Source: a bacterium (GTDB lineage: Bacteria; CG2-30-53-67; CG2-30-70-394). Taken from it: a stretch of 16,011 bases of DNA. Both the position numbers and the translations under genes were made by a program. A model generated the notes under the pieces. It searched no databases. It had not been told where the DNA came from and worked only from the letters and a program-made list of their open reading frames with translations. Location: contig JAJRSX010000182.1 in NCBI GenBank assembly GCA_024278555.1, positions 1-16,011 of the forward strand. The letters are read 5' to 3'. Below are positions 10,906 to 14,002 of this stretch, in pieces (position 1 is the first letter of the stretch; each line of letters begins with the position of its first letter).

Positions 10906-11697
10906 TCACTCCGCCCGCCCCGCCACCGCCCGCAGGAGGAGGAGGACCGCCGCGGCCGCCGCCACCAGGAGGAGGGCCAGGCGGGCGGCGACCGCCAAGT
11001 GGCCTGACTCGAGGGCGATGTAGAGGCCGGTGGCCACGGTCTCGGTGCGGCCCGGCAGGGTCCCGGCGACGGTGACCGTGGCGCCGAACTCGCCCAGCGC
11101 CCGGGCGAAGGCGAGGACCGCCGCCGCCAGGAGCCCCGGCCGGGCCAGGGGCAGGGTGACGCGCCAGAGGATCTTCCACCGTGAGGCGCCGTGGAGCTCG
11201 GCGAGGCGCTCGAGCCGCGGGTCGACGCCCACGAAGGCGGCCTCGGCGCTACGCACCACCAGGGCGACCACCACGGTGAACTGCGCCGCCACCACCCCGG
11301 GGAAGGCGAAGAGGAGCCCCACCCCCCCCTCCAGCCAGCTCCCCGGCGGGGCGCGCAGGGCGAGGAGGATGGCGGTCCCCACCGCCACCGGGGACAGCAT
11401 GGTGGGGAGGTCGAGGAGGGTGGTGACCAGGCGGCGGCCGGCCATGCGGGTGCGGGCCAGCCAGAGGGCGGTGGGGACGCCGACGACGAGGGCTAGGAGG
11501 GTGGCGCAGAGGGCGGCGGCGAGGCTGATGCCGAGAAGCGGCAGGAGGTGGAGGGGCGCCTCCGCCGGCGTCGCGGCGAGGCGCGCCAGGGCGAGGAGCA
11601 GCAAGAGGAGGTAGGCGACGAGGGCCGCGGCGGTGGTCGCCGCCCGCGCGCCCCCCACCACCCCCGGCGGCGCCGCATCCACCCCCTTGCCCCTCAC
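10906..11697 (-). CDS. modB: Molybdate ABC transporter permease ModB
   Basis: This 263-residue inner-membrane permease of the ModABC importer has about six hydrophobic segments, beginning ALVAYLLLLLLALARLA near residue 25. The MetI-type core has LGISLAAALCATLLALVVGV, RTRMAGRRLVTTLLDLPTML and SPVAVGTAILL. The cytoplasmic EAA loop, which docks to the ATPase, reads ELHGASRWKILWRVTLPLAR and continues into ALGEFGATVTVAG, a ModB hallmark. The GTG at 11697 overlaps the modA stop as GTGA, with GGAGG about 10 nt upstream, so translation is coupled. It is the last gene of the operon. The ATPase ModC, normally next, is not here, since the next gene is convergent and begins 42 bp away. Tungstate as substrate cannot be excluded. 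Confidence 0.92.
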   Translation of the reverse strand: MRGKGVDAAPPGVVGGARAATTAAALVAYLLLLLLALARLAATPAEAPLHLLPLLGISLAAALCATLLALVVGVPTALWLARTRMAGRRLVTTLLDLPTMLSPVAVGTAILLALRAPPGSWLEGGVGLLFAFPGVVAAQFTVVVALVVRSAEAAFVGVDPRLERLAELHGASRWKILWRVTLPLARPGLLAAAVLAFARALGEFGATVTVAGTLPGRTETVATGLYIALESGHLAVAARLALLLVAAAAAVLLLLRAVAGRAE

Positions 11698-12497
11698 CGC
11701 CCCACCCCCTCCGGCGGCTCGGTGCGGTAGCCGTGGCGCCGCCAGATCGCCCGGCCCGCGGGCGAGGCGAGCCAGGCGAGAACCCGGCGTGCCGCCGCCG
11801 GGTGGCGGGCAAAGGTCGTCACCCCCCCGGGGATCGTCGCCACCCCGGGGATCAACGCCGGGTCCACCGGGACCGCCTCGACCCGCTCCGGGAACCAGGC
11901 GGCGAAGACCCGCCAGCCGAGGATCGCGTCGACGCTGCCGGTGGCGAGGAGGTTGGCCACCGCCGCACACGACGGGGCGCGGCCGGCACGCGCCGCCACC
12001 GCCCCCTGCAGGTGGGCACGGGCCAGGAGCCGCCGGCCGTAGTCGCCCACGCAGACGGTGCGCGGCTCGCCGAGGGCGACCTTCACGTCGTCCCGCAGGA
12101 GATCGCGCGGGGTACGGATCCCCTTCGGGTTGCCCTTGGCCACCAGCAACGCCGGTACCAGGTAGGCGAAGTCAACGCGGGTCGCCGGGTCCACCACGCC
12201 GCGGCTGATCGCCCGCTCCAGGTAGTCGTGGCTCCCCGGGAGGTAGATGTCCCCCCGGTGGGTGAGACGGAGCTGCGCCAGCAGCGCCCCCGAGGCGCCG
12301 AGGTTGGGGAGCACCTTGATCCCGAGCGCCCGTTGGATCTCTGGAATCGCCTCCTCGATCACCGGCGTCGAGGCGGCGCCGGCGAAGAGGAGCACCTCCT
12401 CCCCCGCCATCGCCGGCCGCGACACGACGACCACGAAAACCGCCGCGATTAGCCACGGAATCCACGGAAGGACACGGAAAGATCGTGAGCGCTTCAT
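11694..12497 (-). CDS. modA: Molybdate-binding periplasmic protein ModA
   Basis: This 267-residue solute-binding protein delivers molybdate to ModB. The signal peptide is MKRSRSFRVLPWIPWLIAAV continuing to a cleavage site after PAMA (about residue 30). The mature part starts EEVLLFAGAASTPVIEEA and has NLGASGALLAQL, GDIYLPGSHDYLE, LLVAKGNPKGI, LGEPRTVCVGDYGR and WRVFAAW, all consistent with ModA/WtpA folds. The ATG at 12497 has AAGGA (12502-12506) at 4-5 nt. An imperfect inverted repeat supplies both that site and residues about 6-16 of the signal peptide. The end overlaps modB by GTGA. There is a 65-nt gap to the MOSC-MogA gene, filled by the other repeat arm. Tungstate could also be bound. 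Confidence 0.9.
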   Translation of the reverse strand: MKRSRSFRVLPWIPWLIAAVFVVVVSRPAMAGEEVLLFAGAASTPVIEEAIPEIQRALGIKVLPNLGASGALLAQLRLTHRGDIYLPGSHDYLERAISRGVVDPATRVDFAYLVPALLVAKGNPKGIRTPRDLLRDDVKVALGEPRTVCVGDYGRRLLARAHLQGAVAARAGRAPSCAAVANLLATGSVDAILGWRVFAAWFPERVEAVPVDPALIPGVATIPGGVTTFARHPAAARRVLAWLASPAGRAIWRRHGYRTEPPEGVGR

Positions 12498-12536
12498 CGG
12501 ATCCTTTCCGTGTCTTTCCGTGGATTCCGTGGCTAA
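12449..12536. repeat. 33-bp inverted repeat spanning the modA start
   Basis: The arms are 12449-12481 and 12504-12536. They match at 32 of 33 positions and are built on CCACGGAATCCACGG and GACACGGAAAG submotifs. The 22-nt loop holds the modA start codon (12495-12497), and the ribosome-binding site straddles the inner edge of one arm. In the mRNA this would be a long stable hairpin. The other arm encodes part of the modA signal peptide. Confidence 0.9.
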
Positions 12537-12562
12537 TTTCTCATTCTCCAAGCCCCCCGTGG

Positions 12563-13561
12563 CTACCGCACCACCACCTTCAACGGCTGCGCCTCGGGCT
12601 TGGCCGTTGCGACCTGCTTGCGGCGCGGGTCGTCGGCGTGGGCGGTGTGGCCGCGCAGGAGCCGCACAGCGTGGGGCAGGGTGTCGAGGATGGCGGTAAG
12701 GTTCTCGGTGGCCGCCCGCTCGCTGCCGGGGAGGTTGACGATGAGGGTGGTGCGGCGGATCCCGGCCACCGCCCGCGAGAGCCATGCGTGGGAGGTGATC
12801 TCGGCGGAGGCGGCGCGCATCCGCTCGGCGAGCCCCGGCACCTGGCGGTCAATCACCGCGAGGGTGGCCTCGGGGGTGACATCGCGCGGCCCGCAGCCGG
12901 TGCCGCCGCAGGTGAGGACCAGGTCGATGCCGCGGTCCGCGAGCCCTTTGAGGGAGTGCTCGAGGGTCTCCTGCTTGTCCGGCAGAATGCGGGTGACGGC
13001 CACGTGGGCGTCGAGTCGCGCCTCCGCCAGGCGCGCCACCGCCGGTCCGGCGGTGTCGGTCGCCTCGCCGCGGGAGCAGGTGTCGGAGCAGGTGACCACC
13101 GCCACCTGGATCCGGTCGCGCTCCACCAGCTCGACGACCCGCACCGCGGTGGCCGCCGCCGCCTCGCCGCCCTTGAGGACGCGGCCGAAGACCCCGAGGC
13201 GCGGCATGATGCAGTCGCCGGTGCGGTAGTAGATGGCGCACCGGTCGTGACACACCTTGCCGATCTGGGTGATCTCGATCTCCGCCTCGCCGATCGCCAG
13301 GCGCGAGCCGATCCCGACCCGCGCCAGCTCCAGCCCGGCGACCACGATGTTCTCGCCGAAGGCGCCCGGCTCCAGCTCCAGCCCCAGGGCGCGCTGGTCG
13401 TCGATGTCGGCCTCCAGCAGGAGGCTCACCTGCCGATGGCCGGGGCCGGCGTGGGCGTCACCCTCGACCCCGTGGGCCTCCTGCAGGCGAATCCGCTCCA
13501 CCGGGCGCTTCACCATCCCCTTCTTCTTCGAGGTGCAGACAAAACGGACGGTGCCGGTCAT
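12563..13561 (-). CDS. MOSC domain fused to a MogA/MoaB-type molybdopterin adenylyltransferase
   Basis: This 332-residue fusion has a MOSC domain at residues about 1-140 (VEGDAHAGPGHRQVSLL; GAFGENIVVAGLEL; IGKVCHDRCAIYYRTGDC with the family Cys pair; MPRLGVFGRVLKGG). The MogA/MoaB domain follows at about 150-310: VAVVTCSDTCSRGEATDTAG, LTCGGTGCGPRDVTPEAT, LIVNLPGSERAATENL. The second domain activates molybdopterin with ATP for MoeA. MOSC domains bind or handle the cofactor or its sulfur. The ATG at 13561 has AAGGAG (13568-13573) at 6 nt. Domain fusions of this type are known in proteobacteria. It lies between moaC (474 nt of repeats away) and modA. Cysteines in the GxGxTxxGP loop (GGTGCGP) look normal. 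Confidence 0.92.
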   Translation of the reverse strand: MTGTVRFVCTSKKKGMVKRPVERIRLQEAHGVEGDAHAGPGHRQVSLLLEADIDDQRALGLELEPGAFGENIVVAGLELARVGIGSRLAIGEAEIEITQIGKVCHDRCAIYYRTGDCIMPRLGVFGRVLKGGEAAAATAVRVVELVERDRIQVAVVTCSDTCSRGEATDTAGPAVARLAEARLDAHVAVTRILPDKQETLEHSLKGLADRGIDLVLTCGGTGCGPRDVTPEATLAVIDRQVPGLAERMRAASAEITSHAWLSRAVAGIRRTTLIVNLPGSERAATENLTAILDTLPHAVRLLRGHTAHADDPRRKQVATAKPEAQPLKVVVR

Positions 13562-13618: not shown

Positions 13619-14002
13619 TCAACGCAAAGGCGCCAGGCCGCCGGAGCGCGAAGGGCGCGATGAGGGGCCGCGGGGGTCTCGGGCAGACCACCGGCGGGGC
13701 GGCGACTCCTGGAAGGGGGATTCACCACAGAGACACAGAGGGCACGGAGAACTTCATAGGTAAACATTTCTTGATCAACACATGCCCGAACACCGCCTAC
13801 AGAGGGGGTGACGCAACCAGGGCTCACGTTGCCGTGCACACGTTTGATGAGACGAGTCCCTTCCGATGCAGTCCTCTGTGCTCTCTGTGTCTCTGTAGTG
13901 AAATCACCTTCCAGGCATCCTGCGTAACCCCGCGTTGGCACCGGCGACACCCGGGCCTGTTTCTTCGCCCTTTGCGCCCCGGCGCCTTTGCGCCTCTGCG
14001 TT
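13619..14002. repeat. Large nested inverted-repeat element between moaC and the MOSC-MogA gene
   Basis: The outer arms match as CAACGCA...AAGGCGCC (13620-13634 against 13981-14002), then GCGCGAAGGGCG-like stretches. The inner arms are strongest: about 45 bp from CCTGGAAGG through ATTCACCACAGAGACACAGA to GGAGAAC (13709-13752) against the complement of 13871-13914, with about seven differences. The central loop, about 13753-13870, is less GC-rich and has no gene. No transposase or clear target duplication is seen. The element accounts for the 474-nt gap (13562-14035). Confidence 0.75.

Follow-up and report, generated by a model that had tools for sequence, protein, structure and literature searches.

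A dispersed palindrome probably co-opted as ribosome-binding site, start codon and signal-peptide segment of a modA-like gene

The window, a stretch of bacterial DNA of 16,011 nucleotides, carries on its minus strand a gene for a modA-like substrate-binding protein (11694..12497; SBP_bac_11, 162 bits; TIGR01256 modA, 41 bits, below the cut-off of 62.5). It is preceded on the same strand by a gene encoding a MOSC and molybdopterin-binding protein (mog/moaB-like, 12563..13561), which stops 25 nt before the arms of the palindrome described below, and is followed, again on the minus strand, by a gene for a modB-like permease (10906..11700, start approximate; BPD_transp_1; TIGR02141, 156 bits, below the cut-off of 182.6). 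Since the NCBIfam models for modA and modB both score under their cut-offs, the assignment "molybdate" rests on genomic context as much as on sequence. Sister repeat families crowd this molybdenum-cofactor/modA cluster, which holds moaC and mog. One of them is a second dispersed palindrome in the moaC-mog gap (13708..13915, no strand assigned), outside the modA leader, with the same architecture as the one at modA and with CACAGAG iterons inside CCTGGAAGG ends; CGCAAAGG-type arms (13623-13641 and 13974-13992) enclose it in turn. Elsewhere in the window a minus-strand ORF of 234 aa (757-1461) contains a coiled-coil-like tandem repeat of 18 residues (54 bp) of the GRIDEVSDRIDAVREEL type.

The start of modA is enclosed by an inverted repeat, I7, with arms of 34 nt at 12448-12481 and 12504-12537 (minus strand) that match at 33 of 34 positions (97% complementary) and are separated by 22 nt. 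Read along the modA strand its sequence is GCCACGGAATCCACGGAAAGACACGGAAAGGATCCGATGAAGCGCTCACGATCTTTCCGTGTCCTTCCGTGGATTCCGTGGC. The 33-bp arms that the earlier note had placed in 12449-12536 are this repeat, one base short on each side. The upstream (5') arm (12504..12537) belongs to the non-coding leader of modA, and the gene-proximal (3') arm (12448..12481) encodes residues 6-17 of the protein, SFRVLPWIPWLI. The 22-nt loop region (12482..12503) contains the ATG (12495..12497), the sole in-frame start here that yields a normal Sec signal peptide, and a Shine-Dalgarno-like AAGGA (12502..12506) lies 4 nt upstream of this codon, partly within the stem. The predicted signal peptide, MKRSRSFRVLPWIPWLIAAVFVVVVSRPAMA, spans 12405..12497; here and below, signal peptides were assigned by reading the sequence for n-, h- and c-regions and not by predictor software. 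The suggestion that the element provides modA with its Shine-Dalgarno sequence, its start codon and part of its signal peptide thus agrees with the positions of the ATG, the AAGGA and residues 6-17, all of which fall inside the palindrome.

Folding of the RNA predicts a hairpin of -64.0 kcal/mol, compared with -23.0 +/- 3.4 kcal/mol in shuffled sequences (z -12; none of 200 shuffles was as stable). The AUG does lie in the 22-nt hairpin loop, as had been proposed, but it is not predicted to be fully free, its unpaired probability being 0.36. The AAGGA had been described as partly in the stem; the mean unpaired probability predicted for the Shine-Dalgarno region is 0.10.

The arm is a member of a large repeat family. 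Its 15-nt core, CCACGGAATCCACGG, occurs in 72 exact copies in the 3.06-Mb genome, and in 116 if one mismatch is allowed, against none for the reversed sequence used as a control. The earlier note had taken an arm found nowhere else in the genome as fatal to an insertion; instead the arm recurs in about 75 places of the surveyed part. The survey covered 60 stretches around other copies plus the window, out of an assembly of 211 contigs, and so samples the copies of the genome; with up to two mismatches it yielded 75 elements, namely 23 inverted doublets and 52 single arms. About a dozen doublets have a long form of ~161 bp with a conserved interior, and the copy at modA (82 nt) is among the short palindromic forms of 70-118 nt. 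The arms are about 30 nt long and built of three CCACGGAAn-type iterons, and the outer modules GCCTGGAAGGCGATTTT and CCCGGCAGGGAATT are frequently found beside them. A codon-usage model trained on the genes of the window places 73 of 74 elements between genes, although 20 of the 73 lie near the edge of a stretch or contig; the remaining one touches a gene end. Judged from these sequence features, the family is MITE/REPIN-like. It appears to be largely confined to this lineage: the suggestion that similar repeats are scattered in other proteobacterial genomes does not hold for this exact core, which was found twice (exact) in the one congener searched and once each in 2 of 115 other genomes. 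A search with the 90-nt element gave no match in the plasmid collection, Rfam contains no family that matches the window, and the repeat sequences, taken as text strings, gave no match in the literature searched.

Within the surveyed stretches, the copy at modA alone has an arm that has to be read as the N-terminal part of a coding sequence. Arm-encoded N-termini were also checked at sufD, at gcvT and at genes in stretches L139, L149, L158 and L170, and none of these genes needs one; wherever a gene begins near an arm, as do sufD, gcvT and others, its coding part lies past that arm. Other kinds of contact between elements and genes were seen. The gcvT leader (L165:1500-1560) is a single arm with a purine-rich GGAAGGGCACGGAC right before the ATG, and differs from the leader in the congener; this arm-derived leader may be a second co-opted ribosome-binding site. 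At L160:1415 a gene of 449 aa that precedes an element appears to take its stop codon from the terminal TAG of that element. The sufB-sufC gap (C29, stretch L138) holds several dispersed repeat types, CACGAAG, CGCAAAGG and CACGGAA, none of which is present in the gap of about 100 nt between the same genes in the congener. The gcvT leader, the sufB-sufC gap and the sufC-sufD gap, all occupied in the window's genome, are empty in the congener, so that the family has moved or turned over since the split.

Three informative modA loci were available in the collections searched, two in genomes that carry the element, the window's own (G000) and its congener (G001), and one in an empty relative that is more distant (L009, Acidobacteriota bacterium M_MaxBin.023); no further modA ortholog of useful closeness was found among eight genomes of the phylum. 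In the outgroup L009 (66% aa identity) the C-terminus of mog ends in CGT TGA and modA starts at an overlapping TTG, with neither a gap nor a palindrome between the genes. Its ModA signal peptide, MRFLAATALAAVVLAGPALTAPA, is unrelated to that encoded in the window. The insertion model had been expected to fail if relatives shared the signal-peptide coding sequence without the upstream arm, and the outgroup, with its unrelated start, is not such a relative. The congener has, in its mog-modA gap, an element of the same length as that of the window (82 nt), 34 nt past the mog stop compared with 29 nt. Its outer (first) 18 nt are identical at all 18 positions to those of the window (p 0.0003 at a neutral identity of 0.64), and its right arm encodes W-S-P-W in the frame in which the arm in the window gives W-I-P-W. 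A GTG start with a good Shine-Dalgarno sequence lies at offset 33 of the congener element, one codon away from the ATG at offset 36 in the window. Other in-frame starts of the congener (e.g. GTG AACCGCCCG) also give a signal peptide, so that the use of the element's start is uncertain there. Between the two congeneric genomes the mature part of ModA is under purifying selection (dN 0.15, dS 0.50), which implies that the gene survived the insertion.

That the dispersed palindrome was co-opted as ribosome-binding site, start codon and signal-peptide residues 6-17 of modA is well supported by these sequence comparisons. As a whole, we favour an insertion of the dispersed palindrome followed by co-option of its start codon and signal-peptide segment and by passive damping of translation, with a probability of roughly 70%; within this reading, what we infer is that the ATG and the signal peptide are used, in which order the events took place, and that translation is damped. 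A MITE/REPIN-like copy would have landed between mog and modA, most likely before the split from the congener, and would have cut modA off from an ancestral start overlapping the stop codon of mog. In its place the element would have brought another ribosome-binding site and, within its loop, a start codon; its inner arm, in the right frame, would be read as the hydrophobic FRVLPWIPWLI and merge with the remaining signal peptide. modA may thus have survived because the element brought both a ribosome-binding site and a start, and because the arm reads as an in-frame hydrophobic stretch.

The two elements have not aged alike. In the congener 21 of 33 arm positions form Watson-Crick pairs and the hairpin is reduced to -42 kcal/mol, a decay that equals the expectation for neutral drift at dS 0.5, whereas the arms in the window (33/34) are better kept than drift permits for an insertion that preceded the split (p about 4e-6). 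The account therefore needs a further ingredient, be it homogenisation of the arms, a new and independent insertion, or selection; the preservation can be explained equally well by selection, arm-to-arm correction, conversion from other copies or a fresh insertion. One could accordingly think of two independent insertions at a hotspot just past mog, an old one in the congener and a recent one in the window's genome. Near-perfect arms in one species and decayed arms in the other would fit this, as would loop sequences that differ (and an orientation that may differ) and a family that is far larger in G000. Two hits would, however, have to account for a shared length of 82 nt without indels, nearly equal distances to the mog stop, and the same frame and start position; moreover, the congener family counts just about 3-5 members genome-wide, which makes a second hit at one site improbable. 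We regard separate insertions as unlikely.

How the hairpin affects modA is a matter of prediction. In folding calculations, opening the ribosome-binding site of modA costs 27.4 kcal/mol, compared with 9-17 kcal/mol at seven other starts in the window. On growing transcripts, treated as equilibrium folds of truncated RNAs, the predicted cost is 9-10 kcal/mol when the RNA extends to +12 to about +20, 16 at +30 and 26 from +42 onwards. Because the cost is low on short transcripts, ribosomes loading on nascent RNA would meet an ordinary site, whereas later arrivals would find it locked; loading would be possible up to the point at which about 30-40 nt beyond the AUG have been transcribed, and the site would be closed from then on. 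As the arms in the window still pair almost perfectly, the hairpin probably acts as a passive damper of translation and not as a dedicated switch.

The opposite view, that the hairpin has been selected to gate molybdate uptake, whether as a thermosensor, an RNase III site or a coupling element, draws on its great stability, on the position of the Shine-Dalgarno sequence and AUG at its apex, and on the modA arms in the window being preserved better than drift predicts. The genome encodes RNase III, for which the 34-bp duplex would probably serve as a substrate; the enzyme would be expected to cut it, and a cut there would destroy the modA start. Processing of repeats by RNase III has a precedent in the Correia elements (PMC2649163). 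Yet the stem of the congener decayed at the neutral rate, the same palindrome is found in about 75 unrelated and mostly intergenic places, and no Rfam family was matched. The possible switch for molybdate uptake that had been envisaged is, as a dedicated device, not supported, the long stem being near-perfect in this species only and showing no sign of a ligand-responsive fold. A simple thermosensor, which calls for a stem of marginal stability, was rejected: with the Shine-Dalgarno region sequestered (0.10 unpaired), an opening cost of 27 kcal/mol and a stem of -64 kcal/mol that is not expected to melt across the physiological range, the modelled structure is too stable. A regulated switch is in our view distinctly unlikely.

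It is very unlikely that the element forms only a 5' leader, with modA starting at an upstream TTG or at the GTG at 12434 and the palindrome being non-coding. The codon-usage model does place its top-scoring modA start at 12434, past the arm, but it prefers this codon because the arm is unlike native coding DNA. A start at 12434 would leave VVVVSRPAMA, which lacks the n-region and the greater part of the h-region, and export of such a protein would be improbable; the upstream TTG would give a long, partly acidic n-region. In addition, no stop codon interrupts the reading frame across the element in either species, and the ATG at 12497 has its Shine-Dalgarno-like AAGGA at 4 nt.

The two species may carry the element in opposite orientations. 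Comparison with its own reverse complement shows 20 differing positions; at these, the congener's element agrees with the inverted element of the window at 12 and with the direct one at 4. Alignment scores for the loops alone also favour inversion, at 14 against 5 (shuffle p 0.018 and 0.43, respectively). This is weak evidence, with a one-sided sign test of about 0.04 from one genome pair. The loop in the window contains a start codon in both orientations (ATG AAG... and GTG AGC...), each in the modA frame through the shared arm, and flipping would therefore change the strength of initiation without breaking the protein. An invertible start module, whose orientation seems to differ between the congeners, is nevertheless highly improbable. 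An intrinsic terminator or attenuator between mog and modA is barely credible and was rejected: a pattern scan flagged two terminator-like sites in the arms, compared with a mean of 0.2 in shuffled sequences, but each is a short sub-hairpin formed from only part of an arm, the complete stem on the modA strand is followed by CGCGGCGGTTTTCG and not by an immediate U-tract, and termination here would silence modAB.

The preferred reading, insertion and co-option of a dispersed palindrome, can be compared with several known systems. REPINs, i.e. paired REP hairpins (Bertels & Rainey 2011, PMC3116915), resemble the modA family in occurring as singlets and as inverted doublets with a spacer, mostly outside genes and in high copy number within one genome. 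REPs of the GTAG type carry the tag GTAG, which the family lacks; among 68 arm ends the tetranucleotide before the core was TTGG in 15, TTAG in 11, TCAG in 7, TGAG in 6 and GTAG in one. None of the four Y1_Tnp (RAYT-like) genes in the genome is flanked by clear arms, the locus L205 having one match with three mismatches. 23S_rRNA_IVP four-helix-bundle proteins are neighbours of similar repeats; such proteins are present in the genome, with no clear arms flanking them. Like MITEs, the family consists of short non-coding elements with inverted ends and many dispersed copies, and it shows presence/absence polymorphism between related genomes (the gcvT and suf sites). No target-site duplication was obvious by eye in the surveyed copies, and no matching transposase was found. 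Correia repeat enclosed elements (PMC2649163) are likewise miniature inverted-repeat elements, which can alter the expression of neighbouring genes, including via RNase III, although sequence and host differ.

With respect to coding use, the copy at modA recalls the Rickettsia palindromic elements (RPEs; PMC10969869), palindromes inserted in frame and translated within a conserved protein, in that its arm appears to be read in frame as residues 6-17. RPEs insert within ORFs of the genome and alter the encoded protein through translational fusion, whereas the modA element lies at the 5' end and would give the Shine-Dalgarno sequence, the start and part of the signal peptide; moreover, unlike in RPEs, coding copies are rare in this family (one of about 75 surveyed). 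An NCBIfam scan of ModA matched no RPE model, the arm-encoded stretch being just 12 residues long. A further parallel is the enterobacterial RU-2 repeat, a small mobile repeat which forms N-terminal residues of the predicted signal peptide of YPO1552, the signal sequences of its relatives being unrelated (Delihas 2007, PMC2759123). YPO1552 is a putative exported protein (PMC2759123), whereas the gene in the present case can be identified as a transport gene, an outgroup shows the empty site, and the start lies inside a long hairpin. Repeat-derived N-termini are thus already known; what is new is that a Shine-Dalgarno sequence, a start codon and signal-peptide residues come from one palindrome at a transport gene, together with an empty outgroup.

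Finally, the locus offers a clean natural example of dispersed intergenic DNA turned into a working ribosome-binding site, start codon and export signal of a conserved gene, with the outgroup representing the state before the insertion and the congener the state after decay. It is also a testable case of translation starting from the apex of a very stable hairpin, which should succeed mainly for ribosomes loading while the RNA is nascent. Should the hairpin simply be tolerated, the example would illustrate how well signal peptides and start sites can absorb an insertion.
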